Assembly (NCBI GenBank): GCA_002221725.1
Contig: NJFT01000263.1
Coordinates: 1-53,440 of the forward strand
Length of the DNA: 53,440 bases
Reading direction: 5' to 3'
Source of the DNA: Scedosporium boydii
Taxonomy: Eukaryota; Ascomycota; Sordariomycetes; Microascales; Microascaceae
Shown here: positions 5,740 to 45,817 of the stretch, piece after piece
How the letters are laid out: every line of letters begins with the position of its first letter
Position numbering within the stretch: position 1 is the stretch's first letter
Notes under the pieces: generated by a model
The model's input: only the letters and a program-made list of their open reading frames with translations
Told to the model about the DNA's origin: nothing
Databases searched by the model: none
Program-made: the position numbers and the translations under genes

Positions 5740-6270
5740 AAAGACTTATAAAGTTAAAGTCCTAGTCTAATATATTTTTATTATAGGTAAGGAGGAGAAA
5801 AATATATTATATATTTATTATTATAAAGTAAAAATAGTATATTTATTTATAGTAGGTTCCTCTTACTATAAGGAGTATACTTATTAGAAGAAATCTTATA
5901 ATAGGAATTTTATTACCTCTTCTTATTTATTTCTTCCCTTTCTTACTTTCCTTTTACTTCTACTTACTTTCCTAATTACTTATTCCCTAGCTACAACTTA
6001 CTAGGTAGAGGAAGATCTTTCTAAGATAGAAAATGATCTAGCTAAGGCCTTAGCTTAAGTAGCTTATCTTAAAAAATAGTAGAATACTTTTAAAGAGAAG
6101 AATACTATACTATTCTACTATAGTCTTTAGGGTCTAGAGGAGAGTAAGGGATCTAAAGGTATTATTTTAACTATTTAGTAAGTAGTTAAAGATATTTAGT
6201 CTCTAGGTACCTTTAATATAATCAATTAGGATTTAATTAGGTTATCTCTAGATCTATAACTAATAGATTT
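5740..6270 (+). pseudogene. Opposite-strand Cys-motif ORF of element K (degraded)
   Basis: Plus strand, opposite to K's pol, between the chromodomain end and the 3' LTR. About 5790-5905 reads ILYIYYYKVKIVYLFIV, then SSYYKEYTY and SYN. With Cys-to-Tyr RIP changes allowed, this parallels the CX2C...C...CX2C...YN pattern of the A and C copies. A Gln/Lys/Glu-rich part follows at about 6010-6150, probably after an intron. Function unknown; see the finding on antisense genes. Confidence 0.45.
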
Positions 6271-19600: not shown

Positions 19601-22600
19601 GAAAAGAAAATATAAGTAAGTATATATAATAAGAGCTATAATAATCTTTAAAGCTATACTACTAGTAGAAGAAACGCTATAGTATATACCTAAAGAATAT
19701 TAGAAATATAGTAAAGTATTTACTAAAGAACTAGATACTAAACTACTAGAATATAGCTAGTAAAACTATAAAATACTATTAAAAAAAGAGACTTAACTAA
19801 AGTTTATATTTATCTATAACCTTACTAAAACGCAATAGTAAGCGTTAAGAGACTATATAGTAAAGATATTAAAGAAGGGATATATTAGACCCTTAATATT
19901 ACTAGTAAAATATCTAATCCTCTAGGTACTAAAGAAAAATAGTAAACTATAAATATATATAAACTATTAATAACTTAACGAAATTACTATTAAAAACTGA
20001 TACCTGTTACTACTTATTTTAAAACTATAGAATATACTTTAAGAAGCGTAGTAGTTTATAACTCTAGACTTAAGAGGAGTATATAACTTAATCTATATTA
20101 AGGAAGGTAACGAGTAAAAGACTACTTTTAGGACACGCCTTAGGTACTTTAAGTACTTAGTTATACCTTTTAGGTTAATAAATATCTTTACAAGTTTCTA
20201 GATAATAATTAATTATATCCTATAAGAATACTTAGACTACTTTATAGTAGTATACCTTAATAATATCCTTATCTTTTTAAAAATGCTAGAAGAGTATAAG
20301 GAATATATATATAAAGTCCTCTAGAAGCTATAAGATATAAAACTATTAGTAGAACTAGCTAAGTGCGAATTCTACAAATAGTAAGTAGACTTCCTTAGAT
20401 ATATAATCTAACCTAGGAAGGTTTAAATATAAAAATCGAAGGTTAAAGCTATCTTAGAATAGCTAGTACTAACTAATATTATAGAAGTAAAAAGATTTTT
20501 TAGATTCCTTAACTTCTATAGAAAGTTCTTAAGAGGCCACAGTACTTATATATAAGCCCTTATAGAACTTACTAAGAAAGATAGACTATTCTAATAGGGA
20601 CTAGAGGAATAGAAAGCGTTCTAGGAAGCTAAGTAGTTAGTATATAAGCAACCTATACTCTATTAAGTAGACCCTATAAAACCCTTTGAATTAGAAACTA
20701 ACGTATTAGACTATAGACTGGGCGTGCAATTAGGATAGTAAGATGAGGATAGTAAACTTTACCTAGTAGCGTTTATATTAAAGAAACTTAATAGACCCGA
20801 ATTATATTACACTATCCCTAATAAGGAACTAATAGCTATTATTAAAGTATTTAAGGAATAGAGATACTACCTTATTAAAGCTAAGCATCTGATTACAATA
20901 TACTCTAATTATAAGAACCTTATAGGGTTTACTATGACAAAGGAACTCAACCAACGACAAATGCGATGGGTAGAAGAACTGTCTAAGTATGACTTTAGGA
21001 TTATATATATTAAAGAAAAGGAAAACGGAAGAGCTGACGCCCTCAGCTGGAGATTAGACTACTTTTAGAAAGTACCTAAAGAGATAGGTACCCTCTTTTA
21101 CTATAATAAAGAAGGAAACCTATAGTAGTTGGCTGTAGGGTATTAGATATAATAAGTTAACCTAATTGTAAAGGAAATTAAAAACTACTATATAGATTTT
21201 AGACTATAAGACTAAATATAGACCTAAGAGTAAATGTAGATAATAGTGCTTCTAAACCTAGTAGAAAGATTTATCTAAGTAATCTATAAAGTACTATATA
21301 ATAGGTACCTAGAAATTATGAAAACTATAGAAAAGGTACTAAAGAAGTATTCTACTCTATACTTTAAGAAGGTAACTACTAAGGTTATAGCTAAATGCCC
21401 TCAGTGTAGAAAAAATAAGAATTAGCTATATAAGCTATATGGACAACTGTAACCTATGCTGGTACTAGAGGTACTATAGTAGAAAATTGTTATCGACTTT
21501 ATTGTTAAACTACTGAAGTTAAGAGACCTAGCCACAGGGGTTAGATATAATAGTATTATAGTAGTAATTGATAGGCTGACGAAGTATACTTACTTTATAT
21601 TCTATAATAAATCTATAAAAGCATTATAATTCGTAGAATTATTCCTGCGAACTATAGTAGTAAACTATAACTTACTAGAAAAAGTTAACTTAAATAGAGG
21701 TAGAGTATTTATCTCTTACTTCTAGTAAAGCTTATTAGATAGAATAGGAATTAATTATAAACTATTTACTACCTATTACTTAGAAATATAAGGGTAGGTA
21801 AAACGAATAAACTAAACGCTCGAGATATATTTACAGTACTATATTAACTGGGAATAAGATAACTAAGTATTGCTACTACCTTTAGCCTAGAAAGCCTATA
21901 ATATTAATATATTGGAAAGTCTTAGAATATTACTATTCTATGTAAACTATAATATCGAACTTAGAATAGGATTTAAGCCTATAAGTACGAAAATACAAGT
22001 AGAATAAATAATCCTTATAGTAGATAAGATGAAGGAACTATATAGATAGTTAAAAGAGGAACTATAATTTATCTAATAAAGAATGAAATGCTATACTAAT
22101 AATAAGCAGCTTAAGAGACTAATTCTTAAGAGGGGAAGCAAGGTCTAATTACTATAAAAGAAACTAGGAACTAGGGACCCCTAAATTAAAATAATAAGAC
22201 TAAGTAATAAGCTTGATTACTGAAAACTAGGGCCCTTCCTAGTTAAAAAGAAAGTCTCGGAAGTAAACTACGAGTTAGAACTACTAGAAGGTATAGACAA
22301 CTATCTAATATTCTATATAGTATTACTTAAACTAGCCTATAAAGATATACTATTAGGAAGATTAATCTAGCTCGAAGCTGAAGAATAAGGAATCTTCGAG
22401 GTAGAAAGGATCATTAACTTATAAAATAACGAAGGGACTATTAAATATCTAGTCAAATAGAAAAACTACGAAGAAAGCGATAATATCTAGGAACTTATTA
22501 AATATTTAACAGGGAGCTTATAACTCCTTATAGACTATTACTAGAGGAACCTAGTAAAACTGAGGGATCTAGTAGTGTAGGATCTATTAGCAAACTCTAG

Positions 22601-22620
22601 TTAATCTCTAAACCAGGGAT
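16675..22620 (+). pseudogene. gag-pol polyprotein of A, broken by RIP stops
   Basis: One frame starts at ATG 16675 (MSTTKGSTTSIEDIKKAY). Domains: capsid-like part; CCHC zinc knuckle at 17534-17578 (CYECGCYSYYVREC, His now Tyr); a Gln/Glu/Lys-rich coiled-coil linker at about 17640-19080; protease site VDSR (expected D-S-G) near 19161; RT active site VYLNNILIF at 20250-20276 (YLDD now YLNN); RNase H near 20685-20850; integrase zinc region (CPQCRKNKN) near 21398 and core IIVVIDRLTKYTYF near 21555; chromodomain near 22450-22530. Catalytic Asp and Gly residues are mutated, and Q/W codons have become stops. Chromodomains direct insertion to heterochromatin in this clade, which fits the nested context. 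Confidence 0.85.
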
Positions 22621-23110
22621 AGAGACAGAGGCGCTCTCTGTAGCGTCCTCCTCGGCTACCTACTCCATCCCTAACCTAATAACCTCTAATGCCCTCTTCT
22701 TATAAAGCTCCTTCTCCTAGCGAATCTTCGCAATACAGGATAAGGTAGCCTAAAGCACTGCCTCTACCTCCTACTCTTCCTTTACAATATAAGACTGCTC
22801 CTACTCCAAACAATTAACTAAAGGATATACTAGTTAGGGAAGAAAGGAAAGGAAGGGAAGGGAGACTAACAAGCAGAATCTGTAATTCCCCTAGCATTAT
22901 AATTGGCGTAACGAAGGAGGATGTAGTAATTACAATAGGACTGCCCCTCCTAAACAACACACTCATAGGGAGTGCGAGAATTAAAGCAAGCTATACACTT
23001 CAGCATCTTAAAAGGATACTAATAAGAAAGAATATTATCTACTACCTAAGCTAGGCGCTTATAGTTTACTTTAAAAGAAACCACCAGGGAACGAGACTTG
23101 GAAACACAAG
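22561..23110 (-). pseudogene. Opposite-strand Cys-motif gene in the 3' region of A
   Basis: Minus strand, between the pol end and the polypurine tract. The Cys cluster at about 22997-22890 reads KCIACFNSRTPYEC, then SYCNYY, then ANYNA...GITDSAC, a CX2C-X7-C-X8-C-X2-C(now Y) pattern. A likely intron follows, then NCLEQEQ... and a charged helix (EKELYKKRALEVIRLGMEQ with Q as stop), ending near 22570 (LLIDPTLLDPS). It is homologous to the same region of D, C and K. The few stops are Q-to-TAG changes. Start exon not identified. Function unknown; Cys spacing suggests metal binding (inference). Confidence 0.6.
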
Positions 23111-23198
23111 TCAGCATGATAGAAAGGAAAGATGGTGTAGAGACTTACCTAGGAAGAAAAGGAAGATTAGAACTAATAAGTCTTTAGGGACAAAGACT

Positions 23199-33259: not shown

Positions 33260-33770
33260 CCTAATTAAATTCTAATTGATTATATCTATAGTACTAGAAG
33301 ACTATATAGCTATAGTAGCTTTAGACTCCTAGTACTCTACTTCCTCTAATTTATCTAATAACTTAATACTTTAGTAAATTATCTTTAGCTCTTTTCTTAA
33401 AAGTATTTATTTTTATTTTTAGATATAGGATAAGTAGGTTAACTTTTTAAAAAGAGCTTTTTATAACTAATAGAGGGACTCTTTAGTTTCTTCTTCTTCT
33501 TTATTAGGATAGTACTACTCTAGACTAATCTAAAATACTAGGAACCTATAAGTTAATAAGTAATAGACTAAAGGTAGTAAGAATAATATACTAAATAAAA
33601 TTATTACCTTAGAAGTATTATAAGAACATTACTAATAAATATACTTTCTATAATAAGATATCTTTTTAACTATTTTATAAGTTAATTCCTTCTTTTTATA
33701 AAAAGAATATAATATAACTTTAAAACCTTCTTATTTAATTACTTTAGTATAGTAAAAAGTATAGAGGTAA
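33260..33770 (-). pseudogene. Opposite-strand Cys-motif gene of C (degraded)
   Basis: Minus strand, before the 3' LTR. The region at about 33735-33610 reads EGFKVILYSFYKKKELTYK, then ISYYRKYIY and CSYNTSKV. With Tyr read back as Cys, this matches the A pattern including the final YN. The charged helix at about 33545-33260 (NKEEEETKE, LLRKELKIIY, LLDKLEEVEY) ends in LIDP, as in A. Confidence 0.5.
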
Positions 33771-38340: not shown

Positions 38341-38764
38341 TGTCACGGCCAGGCCGCAACATGGGCCACAGGAAGGCGGTGAGGAACGGTAGTAATAACG
38401 AGAGCACGTGACCACGGGAAGAATAATTAGTCGATCGAGGATCGACTAACTAATAATCGATTAGAAGGAGTCCGACCGACTAGCCGGTTAGGGACTAACT
38501 GATCAACCAGCCTACTAGTACTAAAGATAGATAGAAGAAGTATCTATATAAAGCTACAATGCCTCCTACTAGTTTAATTATCTTCTAGACTCTTTAGTAG
38601 TTAATATAAGTAATATCTACACCCTATACTTATATATATACTCTTAGCACTTATCATTATAAATACTACTTGATTACCTTACTTATCTTTAAATAGGCCC
38701 CTACTATCCTAGTACCTTCCTATCCTATTAATTAGCTGAAACCTATAATATTAGGATTATAATA
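38341..38764 (+). repeat. 5' LTR of D
   Basis: 424 bp, TGTCACGGCC...TTATAATA. Hairpin at 38427-38449 (10 bp arms, GAG loop), still perfect although both arms carry RIP changes relative to the 3' LTR. The primer site TATTAACTACTTT follows directly. Confidence 0.9.
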
Positions 38765-41800: not shown

Positions 41801-44720
41801 AAGCTATACTATTAGTAGAAGAAATACTATAGTATATACTTAAGGAATACTAGAAGTATAATAAAGTATTTACTAAAAAACTAGATACTAGACTACTAGA
41901 ATATAGCTAGTAGGACTATAAGATATTATTAAAAGAAAGTACTTAATTAAAGTTTATACTTATCTATAATTTTATTAAAATGTAATAGTAAGCATTAAGA
42001 GACTATATAGTAAAGATGCTAAAGAAGGGATATATTAGACCCTCGATATCGCTAGTAGGATACCTAATCCTCTAGGTACTAAAGAAGAATGGTGAACTAT
42101 AAATATATATAGACTATTGACAACTTAACGAAATCACTATTAAAAACTGATACCTATTACTACTTATTTTAGAATTATAAGACATATTTTAAGAAGTATA
42201 GTAGTTTATAACTCTAGACTTAAGAGGAGTATATAACTTGATCTATATTAAGGAAGGCAATAAGTAGAAGACTGCCTTTAGAATACGCTTTAGGTACTTC
42301 GAGTACTTAGTTATACCTTTTAGATTAACAAATGCCCTTATAAGCTTCTAGACAATAATTAACTACATCCTACGAGAATACTTAGACTACTTTATAGTAG
42401 TATACCTTAATAATATCCTTATCTTCTCGAAAATGCTAGAAGAGTATAGGGAATATATATATAAAGTCCTCTAGAAGCTATAAGATGTAAAACTATTAGT
42501 AGAACTAACTAAGTATAAATTCTATAAGTAGTAAGTAGACTTCCTTGGATATATAATCTAACCTAGGAAGGTCTAAATGCAAGAATTGAAGGCTAAAGCT
42601 ATCTTAGAATAGCTGGTATTAATTAATATTATAGAAGTAAGAGGATTCTTTGGATTCCTTAACTTCTATAGAAAGTTCTTAGGAGGCCACAGTACTCGTA
42701 TATGGGCCCTTATAGAACTAACTAAGAAGGATAAACTATTTTAATAGGGACTAGAAGAATAAAAAGCATTTTAAGAAGCTAAGTAATTAGTATATAAACG
42801 ACTGGTACTCTATTAGGTAGATCCTTTAAAACCCTTTAAACTAGAGATAGATGTATTAGACTATAGTCTAGGCGCGCAATTAGGACAATGAGACGAGAAT
42901 AGTAAAATTTACCTAGTAGTATTTATATTAAAGAAGCTTAATAGATTAGAACTATATTATACTATTCTTAATAAGGAACTAATAGCTATTATTAAAGCAT
43001 TTAAGGAATAGAGACACTACCTCACTAGAGCTAAGTATCCGATTATAGTATACTCTGATTATAAGAACCTTATAGGGTTTACTACGATAAAGGAACTCAA
43101 CCGACGATAAACGCGATGGGTAGAAGAACTGTCTGAGTACGACTTCAGGATTGTATATGTTAAAGGAAAGGAAAATAGAAGAGCTGACACCCTCAGCCGG
43201 AAACCAGACTACTTTTAGAAAGTACCTAAAGAGACAGGTACCCTCCTTTACTACGATAAAGAAGGAAACCTGCAGCAGTTAGCCACAGGGTATTAGATAT
43301 AATAAGTTAACTTAATCGTAAAGGAAATTAAGAACTACTATATAGACCTCAGACTATAAGACTAAATGTAGACCTAAGAATAAATATAGATAATAGTGCC
43401 TCCAAACCTAGTAGAAAGATTTATCTAAGCAATCTACAAAGTACTATATAATAGGCACCTAGGAATTATGAAAACTATAGAAAAGGTATTAAAGGAGTAC
43501 TCTATTCTATACCTTAAGAAGGTAACTACTAAGGTTATAGCTAAATACCCTCAGTGTAGAAAAAATAAAAATCAGCTATATAAGCTATATAGACAACTGC
43601 AACCTATGCTAGTACTAGAGGTACTATAGTAGAAAATCGTCATCAACTCTATCGTCAAACTACTAAAGTCGAAGGACCCAGCCACAGGGGTTAGATATGA
43701 CAGCATTATAGTAGTAATCGATAGGCTAACGAAGTACGCTTACTTTATACCCTATAACGAATCTATGAAAGCACTACAATTCGCGGAGCTATTCTTATGA
43801 ACTGTAGTAGTAAACTATAACCTATTAGAAGAAGTTAACTTAGATAGAGGCGGAGTATTCGTCTTTTATTTCTAATAGAGTCTATTGGACAGAATAGGAA
43901 TTAATTATAAGCTATCTACTACCTATTATCTAGAAATACAAGGGTAGGTAGAATGAATAAACTAAATACTCGAGATATATCTATAGTACTATATCAACTA
44001 GGAATAAGATAACTAGGTATTACTACTACCTCTAGCCTAGAAAGCTTATAATATTAATATGTCGGAAAGCTTTAAGATATTACTATTCTACGTAAACTAT
44101 AGTATCAAACCTAGGACAGGATTTAAGCCCATAGGCACGAAGACATAAGTAGAACAAGTAATCCTTATAGTAGATAAAATGAAGGAACTATATGAGCAGT
44201 TAAAAGAAGAACTATAATTTATCTAGTAAAGGATAAAGCGCTATACTAATAGCAAGCGGCTTAAGGGACTAACTTTTAAGAGGGGAAGCAAGGTCTAGTT
44301 ACTATAAAAGAAACCAGGAACCAGGAACCCTTAAATTAAAACAATAAGACCAAGTAATAAACTCGATTACTAAAAACTAGGACCCTTCCTAGTTAAGAGG
44401 AAAGTTTCGGAAGTTAACTACGAGTTAGAACTACTAGAAGGTATAGACAACTACCCGGTATTCTATATAGCACTACTAGAACCAGCCCACAAGAGCATAC
44501 TATTAGGAAAGCCAGTCCAGCTCGAAGCCGAGGAACAAGGAATCTTCGAGGCAGAAAAAATTACTAACTTACAAAATAACAAAGGAACTATTAAGTATTT
44601 AGTTAAATAGAAAAACTATAAAGAAAGTAATAACACCTAGGAACCTATTAAACATTTAATAGGGAGCCCATGACTCCTTATAAACTACTACTAAAGGAAT
44701 TTAATAAAGCTAAGGGATCT
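38824..44720 (+). pseudogene. gag-pol polyprotein of D, broken by RIP stops
   Basis: ATG 38824 (MSTTKGSTTTIEDIKKAY). Same order as A: zinc knuckle CYECGCYSYYIREYR at 39685-39729 (last Cys now Tyr), long coiled-coil linker to about 41200, protease VDSR near 41311, RT VYLNNILIF at 42400-42426, RNase H near 42840-43200, integrase HHCC (YPQCRKNKN) near 43545 and core IIVVIDRLTKYAYF near 43708, chromodomain near 44600-44670. Stops are at Q/W codons. Fewer changes than A in the RNase H and integrase parts. Confidence 0.85.
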
Positions 44721-45360
44721 AGTAGTAATAGATCTATTAGTAAGCTTTAATCAATCTCTAAACTAGGGATAGAGGCAGAGGCGCTCTCTGTAGCATCCTC
44801 TTTAGCTACCTACTCTATCCCTAGCCTAATAATCTCTAGTACCCTTTTCTTATAAAGTTCCTTCTCCTTCTTAAGATAACTAGCCCGGGACATAGCTGCG
44901 TTAAGAGCAGCAAGATGACGAGCCACCTTGGCCTCTGCCTCCCACTCCTTACAGTCAAGACAGGATTATTTCTGTTCTAGTTAGTTAACTAGGGAAGTTA
45001 GTAGAAAGATAGAATCTGGAAAGAAAGAAGGACTTACAGGCGGAATTGGTTACGCCGCCAGCATTATAGTTAGGATACTTAAGGTAGATATAACTATCAT
45101 AGCGGGACTATCCCTTATGAACTATATAGTCCTAAGGAACCTTTGCATTAAAATAAGAAGTGTACTTAGGTATCTTAAAAGGATACTATCTGGCTAGAAG
45201 GTTATTAACAGCCTAGGTAAGACAGTCGCAGTTTACCTAAAAAGACCCGGATCGTGACTTAGCAACGCGATCAGGTATAATGAAAGGAAAGGAGGAGTGT
45301 GGACAGGAAGAAAAACACTTACCTGAAGAGGGAAGTTAAGGAAAATAAACCAATAGGTCT
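44720..45360 (-). pseudogene. Opposite-strand Cys-motif gene of D, best-preserved copy
   Basis: Minus strand. A Cys-type region at about 45237-45038 reads VNCDCLT, then IPKYTSYFNAKVP, SRYDSYIYLKYPNYNAGGV and TNSAC (several Cys now Tyr). A clear intron follows at 45037-44972 (GTAAGT donor, ACTAAC branch, ACAG acceptor, 66 bp). The next exon has a second CX2C (SCLDCKEWEAEAKVARHLAA) and a helix (YLKKEKELYKKRVLEIIRLG), almost without stops down to about 44806. A further GTAAGT at about 45322 suggests another intron near the 5' end. It is homologous to the A, C and K copies. Unknown function, probably metal-binding plus coiled coil (inference). Confidence 0.65.
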
Positions 45361-45393: not shown

Positions 45394-45817
45394 TGTCACG
45401 GCCAGGCTGCAATATAGGCCGCAGGAAGGCGGTGAGGAACAGCAGTAATGATGAGGGCATGTGACCACGGGAAGAATGATCGGTCGATCGAGGATCGACC
45501 GACTGATGATCGATCGGAAGGAGTCCGACTGACCAGCCGGTCGGGGACTGACCAATCGACCAGCCTACTAATACTGAAGATAGATGGAAGAAGTGTCTAT
45601 ATAAAGCTACAATGCCTCCCACTAGTCTAGTTATCTTCTAGACTCTTTAGTAGTCAATGTAAGTAACATCTACACCCTACACTTATATATGCACTCTTAG
45701 TACTTATTATTATAAATACTGCTCGATCGCCTCGCTTATCTCTAAACAGGCTCCTGCTATCCTAGCACCTTCCTATCCTATTGATCAGCCGAAACCTGCA
45801 GTGTTAGGATTATAATA
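45394..45817 (+). repeat. 3' LTR of D
   Basis: 424 bp, largely unmutated in U3. Perfect hairpin TCGGTCGATC-GAG-GATCGACCGA at 45480-45502. TATATAAAG near 45598 and AGTAGTCAATG near 45650. Confidence 0.9.

Follow-up and report, generated by a model that had tools for sequence, protein, structure and literature searches.

Antisense Genes of LTR Retrotransposons

Reports exist on LTR retrotransposons that carry a further gene on the strand opposite gag-pol. The closest known to the gene described here is brtn, the antisense gene of the Boty-like retrotransposons of Botrytis cinerea (PMC8365987; PMC4227169; PMC7264820), for which these three papers all cite Zhao et al. (2011, Virology 417:248) as the reference. 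As in the present case, brtn belongs to a filamentous fungus, runs antisense to gag-pol between pol and the 3' LTR (PMC7264820), and occurs in gag-pol elements that have a CHROMO domain (PMC4227169). A transcript resembling truncated Pol and BRTN has also been reported from Monilinia (PMC5987419). The two genes are compared by description, and the descriptions of brtn in these sources mention no intron, Cys cluster or selection test; by position and description, the present gene is judged to be another of that kind.

Antisense open reading frames have also been described from plant elements, among them gene23 of Grande, those of RIRE2 and PvRetro13, and ORF4 of Retand with its TRP28 domain (PMC7264820; PMC11963269). 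They share place and orientation with the present gene, and nuclear or DNA-binding roles have been suggested for their proteins (PMC7264820; PMC11963269), while for Grande a promoter upstream of gene23 has been reported (PMC7264820). As described in these sources, the plant proteins differ in carrying other domains, and Retand is non-chromoviral. The protein studied here had no Pfam match to the TRP28 (PF04195) or bZIP models. HBZ of human T-cell leukaemia virus is an antisense, spliced, coiled-coil bZIP regulator that is expressed from the side of the 3' LTR. It serves as a model for how the present gene would work, although HBZ is a retroviral protein of the bZIP class.

In a survey of fungal LTR retrotransposons the word antisense is absent from the main text (PMC3248453), and no report of a conserved intron, a selection test or a Cys cluster in an antisense gene of a fungal element was found in searches of an open-access collection of papers. 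As a kind, such antisense genes are not new; what is notable here is the conserved intron. A 2020 review asks that antisense and spliced transcripts be looked for (PMC7264820). The antisense genes of LTR retrotransposons are known but unexplained; in the present case, changes that RIP cannot produce show that the gene evolved as a protein-coding sequence, the intron being conserved in three subfamilies, and a selected frame together with a conserved intron makes the function of the protein a directly testable question.

The Antisense Gene in Elements A and D, and Probably in C and K

The window, that is, the whole 53,440-nt stretch of Scedosporium boydii DNA that was analysed, is contig C263 of a 42.9-Mb genome in 442 contigs, and its GC content falls to 0.17 in places. 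Comparison of LTRs delimited element D by direct repeats on the plus strand covering at least 38341..38744 (5' LTR) and at least 45394..45797 (3' LTR, with a purine-rich tract directly before it); from their starts at 38341 and 45394 they are 86% identical over 404 bp. The C-terminal part of D pol (44374..44610, plus strand) is open until inside the chromodomain, which is recognized in D by homology to that of a related element, L040, to which the Pfam match itself belongs. Pol and the antisense gene are convergent, and the order along D is the chromodomain end of pol, the antisense gene on the minus strand and the 3' LTR. An initial annotation of the window had put a gene of the minus strand in this interval at 44720-45360; strand and interval are retained, and the limits have moved to 45278-44645.

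Exon 1 of the D gene (45038..45278, minus strand) begins at the ATG-homologous codon at 45278, comprises 80 codons plus 1 nt and contains the Cys cluster; five TAG stops lie inside it, and its start codon and Cys codons are RIP-altered. A 49-nt intron follows (44989..45037, minus strand; GTAAGT...CTAAC...CTAG), and then exon 2 (44645..44988, minus strand), which encodes the charged helix around KEKELYKKR seen already in the initial annotation, an acidic tail and a conserved stop position at 44647-44645. An open relative from elsewhere in the genome (P0001, see below) matched the D gene by tblastn at E 9e-49 and the gene of element A, at 23105-22501, at E 5e-47. In A, exon 1 lies at 22871..23117 (minus strand), the intron (22818..22870, minus strand; GTTAGT...CTAAC...TTTAG) has 53 nt, and exon 2 (22495..22817, minus strand) encodes a shorter helix, its exact end being taken from the frame. 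In elements C and K, P0001 gave no tblastn match at E 1e-4, and a much diverged version was recovered there with a C-lineage query. Exon 1 of this version in C (33587..33766, minus strand) is 78% identical to a C-lineage relative and has Tyr at the six cluster positions. In K, exon 1 (5771..5902, plus strand) matched a C-lineage relative at E 7.5e-7, and a charged helix like that of exon 2 lies at about 6008-6175 (plus strand). Comparison of the D/A and C lineage profiles was weak (probability 20.7, E 0.0011, one comparison), with cysteines 3-6 in register and one gap. The proposal that the four elements carry the same ORF is therefore firm for A and D, which P0001 matches directly, and only probable for C and K.

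Copies Across the Genome

DNA of D as query gave at least 46 genome matches, and at least 62 were obtained at the protein level with exon 1 of L006, the least altered of the D subfamily (80 residues, no stop). One matched copy sits in a 249-codon open frame and runs from its first Met for 213 residues without a stop (P0001). The LTRs of its element, L040, are 99.5% identical over 441 bp, and the L040 pol has an RNase H domain and, at its end, a chromodomain (PF00385, E 5.9e-17). With LTR-only queries, LTR sequence was found to adjoin 57 of 58 copies (missing in L060, weak in L022); an earlier count of 58/58 had used one query that included leader sequence. Pol-end sequence homologous to the chromodomain-bearing end of L040 lies beside 53 of the 58. 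The position at an LTR and beside the end of pol indicates that the antisense gene belongs to the element, and no free-standing host relative was found among the 58 copies analysed. L022 (C4:416162-419094) has a second antisense-gene match on the same strand, about 0.8 kb from the first, which suggests nested or tandem insertions.

A relative from another source is P0002, an ENA protein of 117 aa that has the same Met start and is identical at 69 of 90 residues (77%). It was the sole relative in the protein database searches, in a database seemingly poor in fungi, and the exon 2 part had no match there. In IMG/VR, 24 stretches fitted a pattern and none was a relative.

Most copies are decayed. 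The matched frames contain 585 stop codons, of which 528 fall in columns where the codon of other copies reaches that stop by one or two RIP-type transitions, and at the six Cys columns the variation is to Tyr only (59/59), in agreement with the initial annotation, which had called most stops RIP-type and had ascribed the variation to Cys-to-Tyr changes. The pattern of stops indicates that decay was mostly by RIP after the copies had entered the genome, and we infer from these stops and the transversion counts below that the gene stayed selected in elements that kept moving.

Selection on the Minus-Strand Frame

Because RIP changes C to T on both strands, transversions alone were counted, as parsimony steps on a tree of 54 copies; L022 had been excluded before alignment and the long-branch copies L056, L057 and L060 before counting, and alignment columns had to hold at least 40 sequences. 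Exon 1 showed 18/6/58 steps at codon positions 1/2/3 (0.34 per site), and exon 2 outside pol showed 17/5/32 (0.39 per site). The intron had 1.51 transversions per site, distributed 28/20/26 over the three classes, and the LTR, used as a non-coding control, had 0.68 per site in classes of 80/69/37. The exon 1 pattern recurred within subfamilies I, II and III (21, 17 and 15 copies) at 1/2/16, 1/0/10 and 1/1/5, pooled 3/3/31; exon 2 within subfamilies gave a pooled 2/1/12, on small numbers. Permutation gave p-values of 5e-5 for exon 1 and 9e-4 for exon 2, which are optimistic, since the classes of the LTR control are uneven too, also within subfamily III (14/12/1), and the counts are not fully independent. 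The case thus rests on the 58:6 contrast and on its repetition in three subfamilies. The unevenness of the LTR classes (80/69/37; L040:3527-3833, arbitrary three-base register) possibly reflects clustered misalignment.

In the unbroken copy the antisense frame has no stops and the five other frames have 1 to 7. Judged by these substitutions, the exon 1 pattern is the signature of a minus-strand protein gene, and it is on this selection that the gene is read from the strand opposite gag-pol. The initial annotation had taken the gene to be a working one, and the RIP-proof changes (18/6/58 overall, 3/3/31 within subfamilies) bear it out; of the two observations that it had named as speaking against a gene, neither was made, as minus-frame selection is clear and an uninterrupted copy is present (P0001, 213 codons).

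In the element of P0001, the pol frame extends beyond the chromodomain into the antisense frame, whose final 182 nt it overlaps (L040:4404-4585; the homologous part of the window lies directly above 44645). Of 55 transversions in this overlap, 2 fall at pol third positions and 31 at pol second positions; pol third positions change least, so the antisense frame bears most of the constraint there. The column of the pol stop is identical in all 15 copies translated, which were picked from 57 aligned.

The Intron

With donor and acceptor patterns chosen by the analyst, 56 of 58 copies were parsed (L008 and L013 were not, and the parse of L022, with 71 nt and no exon 2 anchor, is doubtful). These 56 have a donor-like hexamer after one shared codon position and an acceptor ahead of one shared position of exon 2. 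The donor is GT in 10 of the 56; in the other 46 it is AT, which is a RIP-type change following T. The branch motif CTRAY occurs in the last 35 nt of 51, against 8.6 copies on average and at most 18 in 1000 shuffles. The intron measures 48-69 nt in the 53 copies anchored in both exons, and its length falls into classes 0/1/2 modulo 3 in 17/14/25 copies (n=56). The reading frame is kept in 17 of 53 copies unspliced and in 53 of 53 when the intron is removed, which rules out a mere frameshift, and the intron is conserved across the three subfamilies. A spliceosomal intron is supported by its donor, branch site and acceptor and by the restored frame. For D, the GT-AG intron of the initial annotation is upheld by the sequence evidence, and its acceptor is corrected: the intron runs 45037-44989 (49 nt) and not to 44972, where splicing would leave a stop codon at the exon boundary, both in D (TAA) and in L006.

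Some introns, that of P0001 included, have 51 nt and are open, so an unspliced product is possible as well. In the diverged C type and in L075-L079, the frame varies between the exons, with gaps that hold CTAAC- or CTAAT-like motifs; these gaps and the C-lineage frame were read by eye and left uncounted, and exon 2 of L070 contains an indel. The introns of L003, L006 and L027 contain long T runs, which make up part of the length variation.

The Predicted Protein

The Cys-rich pattern of the initial annotation is retained as a six-Cys cluster. In 59 of 59 matches the six columns (P0001 residues 41, 44, 53, 62, 65 and 73) hold only Cys or RIP-type Tyr, and the spacing in the D/A lineages is C-x2-C-x8-C-x8-C-x2-C-x7-C. 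Gal4-type Zn(II)2Cys6 regulators have six Cys in the order C-x2-C ... C-x2-C followed by a helix, with the canonical spacing C-x2-C-x6-C-x5..12-C-x2-C-x6..8-C. The antisense protein resembles them in the order of Cys followed by a helix; the D/A lineages differ in having x8 in the first loop, where the canonical motif has x6. Twelve diverged copies (six of C type, the five L075-L079, and K) have seven invariant Tyr columns, and six of these, chosen as fitting the spacing, are separated by x2, x6, x8, x2 and x6. If these Tyr codons are former Cys codons, the C/K lineages have the canonical Zn2Cys6 spacing. L075-L079 (C407, C13, C21, C68, C58), which share this Tyr spacing, form another diverged lineage, and in three of the five the frame shifts from one exon to the next. 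With this lineage included, the antisense gene seems to predate the D/A/C265 split.

Pfam did not assign the cluster to Zn2Cys6, the antisense protein having no match to PF00172 at E 10. The genome has at least 150 matches to Zn_clus genes (150 of 322 candidates scored), and by-eye comparison found none of these 150 at an antisense-gene locus. A GATA finger was also considered. The pattern of GATA zinc fingers is C-x2-C-x17..18-C-x2-C, and P0001 has C41-x2-C44-x17-C62-x2-C65; AreA appeared at E 0.66 with a single sequence and was lost with a profile, and the two further invariant Cys do not fit, so that this candidate was rejected. No match among Pfam families and solved structures (PDB) was good enough to name the domain. 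Both structure models leave the Cys region at a pLDDT of about 34-51 with no defined fold, and exon 2 is predicted to form a long helix at residues of about 93-170, with pLDDT mostly >90. By its conserved cysteines the Cys domain is probably zinc-binding and zinc-cluster-like, and the modelled helix probably pairs with a partner helix.

Proposed Function and Alternative Explanations

The reading favoured here, with somewhat better than even confidence, is that of an accessory antisense gene of the fungal chromodomain Ty3/gypsy lineage, whose spliced product would be a nuclear nucleic-acid-binding dimer tuning the transcription of its own element from the LTR. The antisense RNA would start in or near the 3' LTR and, on the evidence of the frame, be spliced once. 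The product, of about 196 residues, would consist of the six-Cys zinc-cluster-like domain, in which the cysteines are observed and zinc would be their expected ligand, and then the long predicted helix, through which two molecules may pair into a dimer. By analogy, the protein would enter the nucleus, bind nucleic acid and tune LTR transcription of its own element. Marker genes with an antisense intron are used to score retrotransposition, the sense RNA not recognizing the intron. Likewise, the sense genomic RNA that is the template of retrotransposition would not splice the intron of the present gene, which would survive by being an intron in the antisense transcript alone. In a more specific version, put forward tentatively, the product would be a Gal4-like zinc-cluster transcription factor binding the LTRs of its own element, and the gene a natural antisense-intron gene, with an intron that retrotransposition would not remove, kept across several chromoviral lineages.

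A regulatory function is what we infer for the gene, and the other roles that a real protein might have must be weighed against it. The protein may instead act in the particle or in integration, as a chaperone, a packaging factor or a pre-integration factor, and not in transcription. A protein with a small Cys cluster and a charged helix would be suited to binding RNA or cDNA, and the nuclear placement of the protein is by analogy, so that this role, though doubtful, deserves consideration; against it, antisense coding with an intron of its own means that the protein is probably expressed apart from Gag-Pol, and zinc clusters paired through helices are mostly found in transcription factors. 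The convergence of the two frames, with 3' ends overlapping by 182 nt, would also suit a functional antisense RNA, which might, for instance, give rise to double-stranded RNA that limits the element. This is quite improbable, as such an RNA predicts neither 18/6/58 steps by codon position nor the restoration of frame in 53 of 53 copies. The same restoration weighs against the view that conservation is a by-product of sense coding and the "intron" a frameshift. That view has the open pol tail over the final 182 nt in its favour, but exon 1 lies outside pol and the pol third positions of the overlap change least (2 of 55 steps), and its probability is negligible.

The initial annotation had offered a regulator of the element or a packaged host-type gene, and the regulator fits better. 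Capture of a host gene by one element family would draw on an ample source, the at least 150 Zn2Cys6 matches of the genome (of 322 candidates, 150 scored), and is nonetheless very unlikely, if conceivable as an ancient event: none of those scored coincided by eye with an antisense-gene locus, 57 of the 58 copies adjoin an LTR with no free-standing host relative among them, and diverged versions occupy the same place in other chromoviral lineages.
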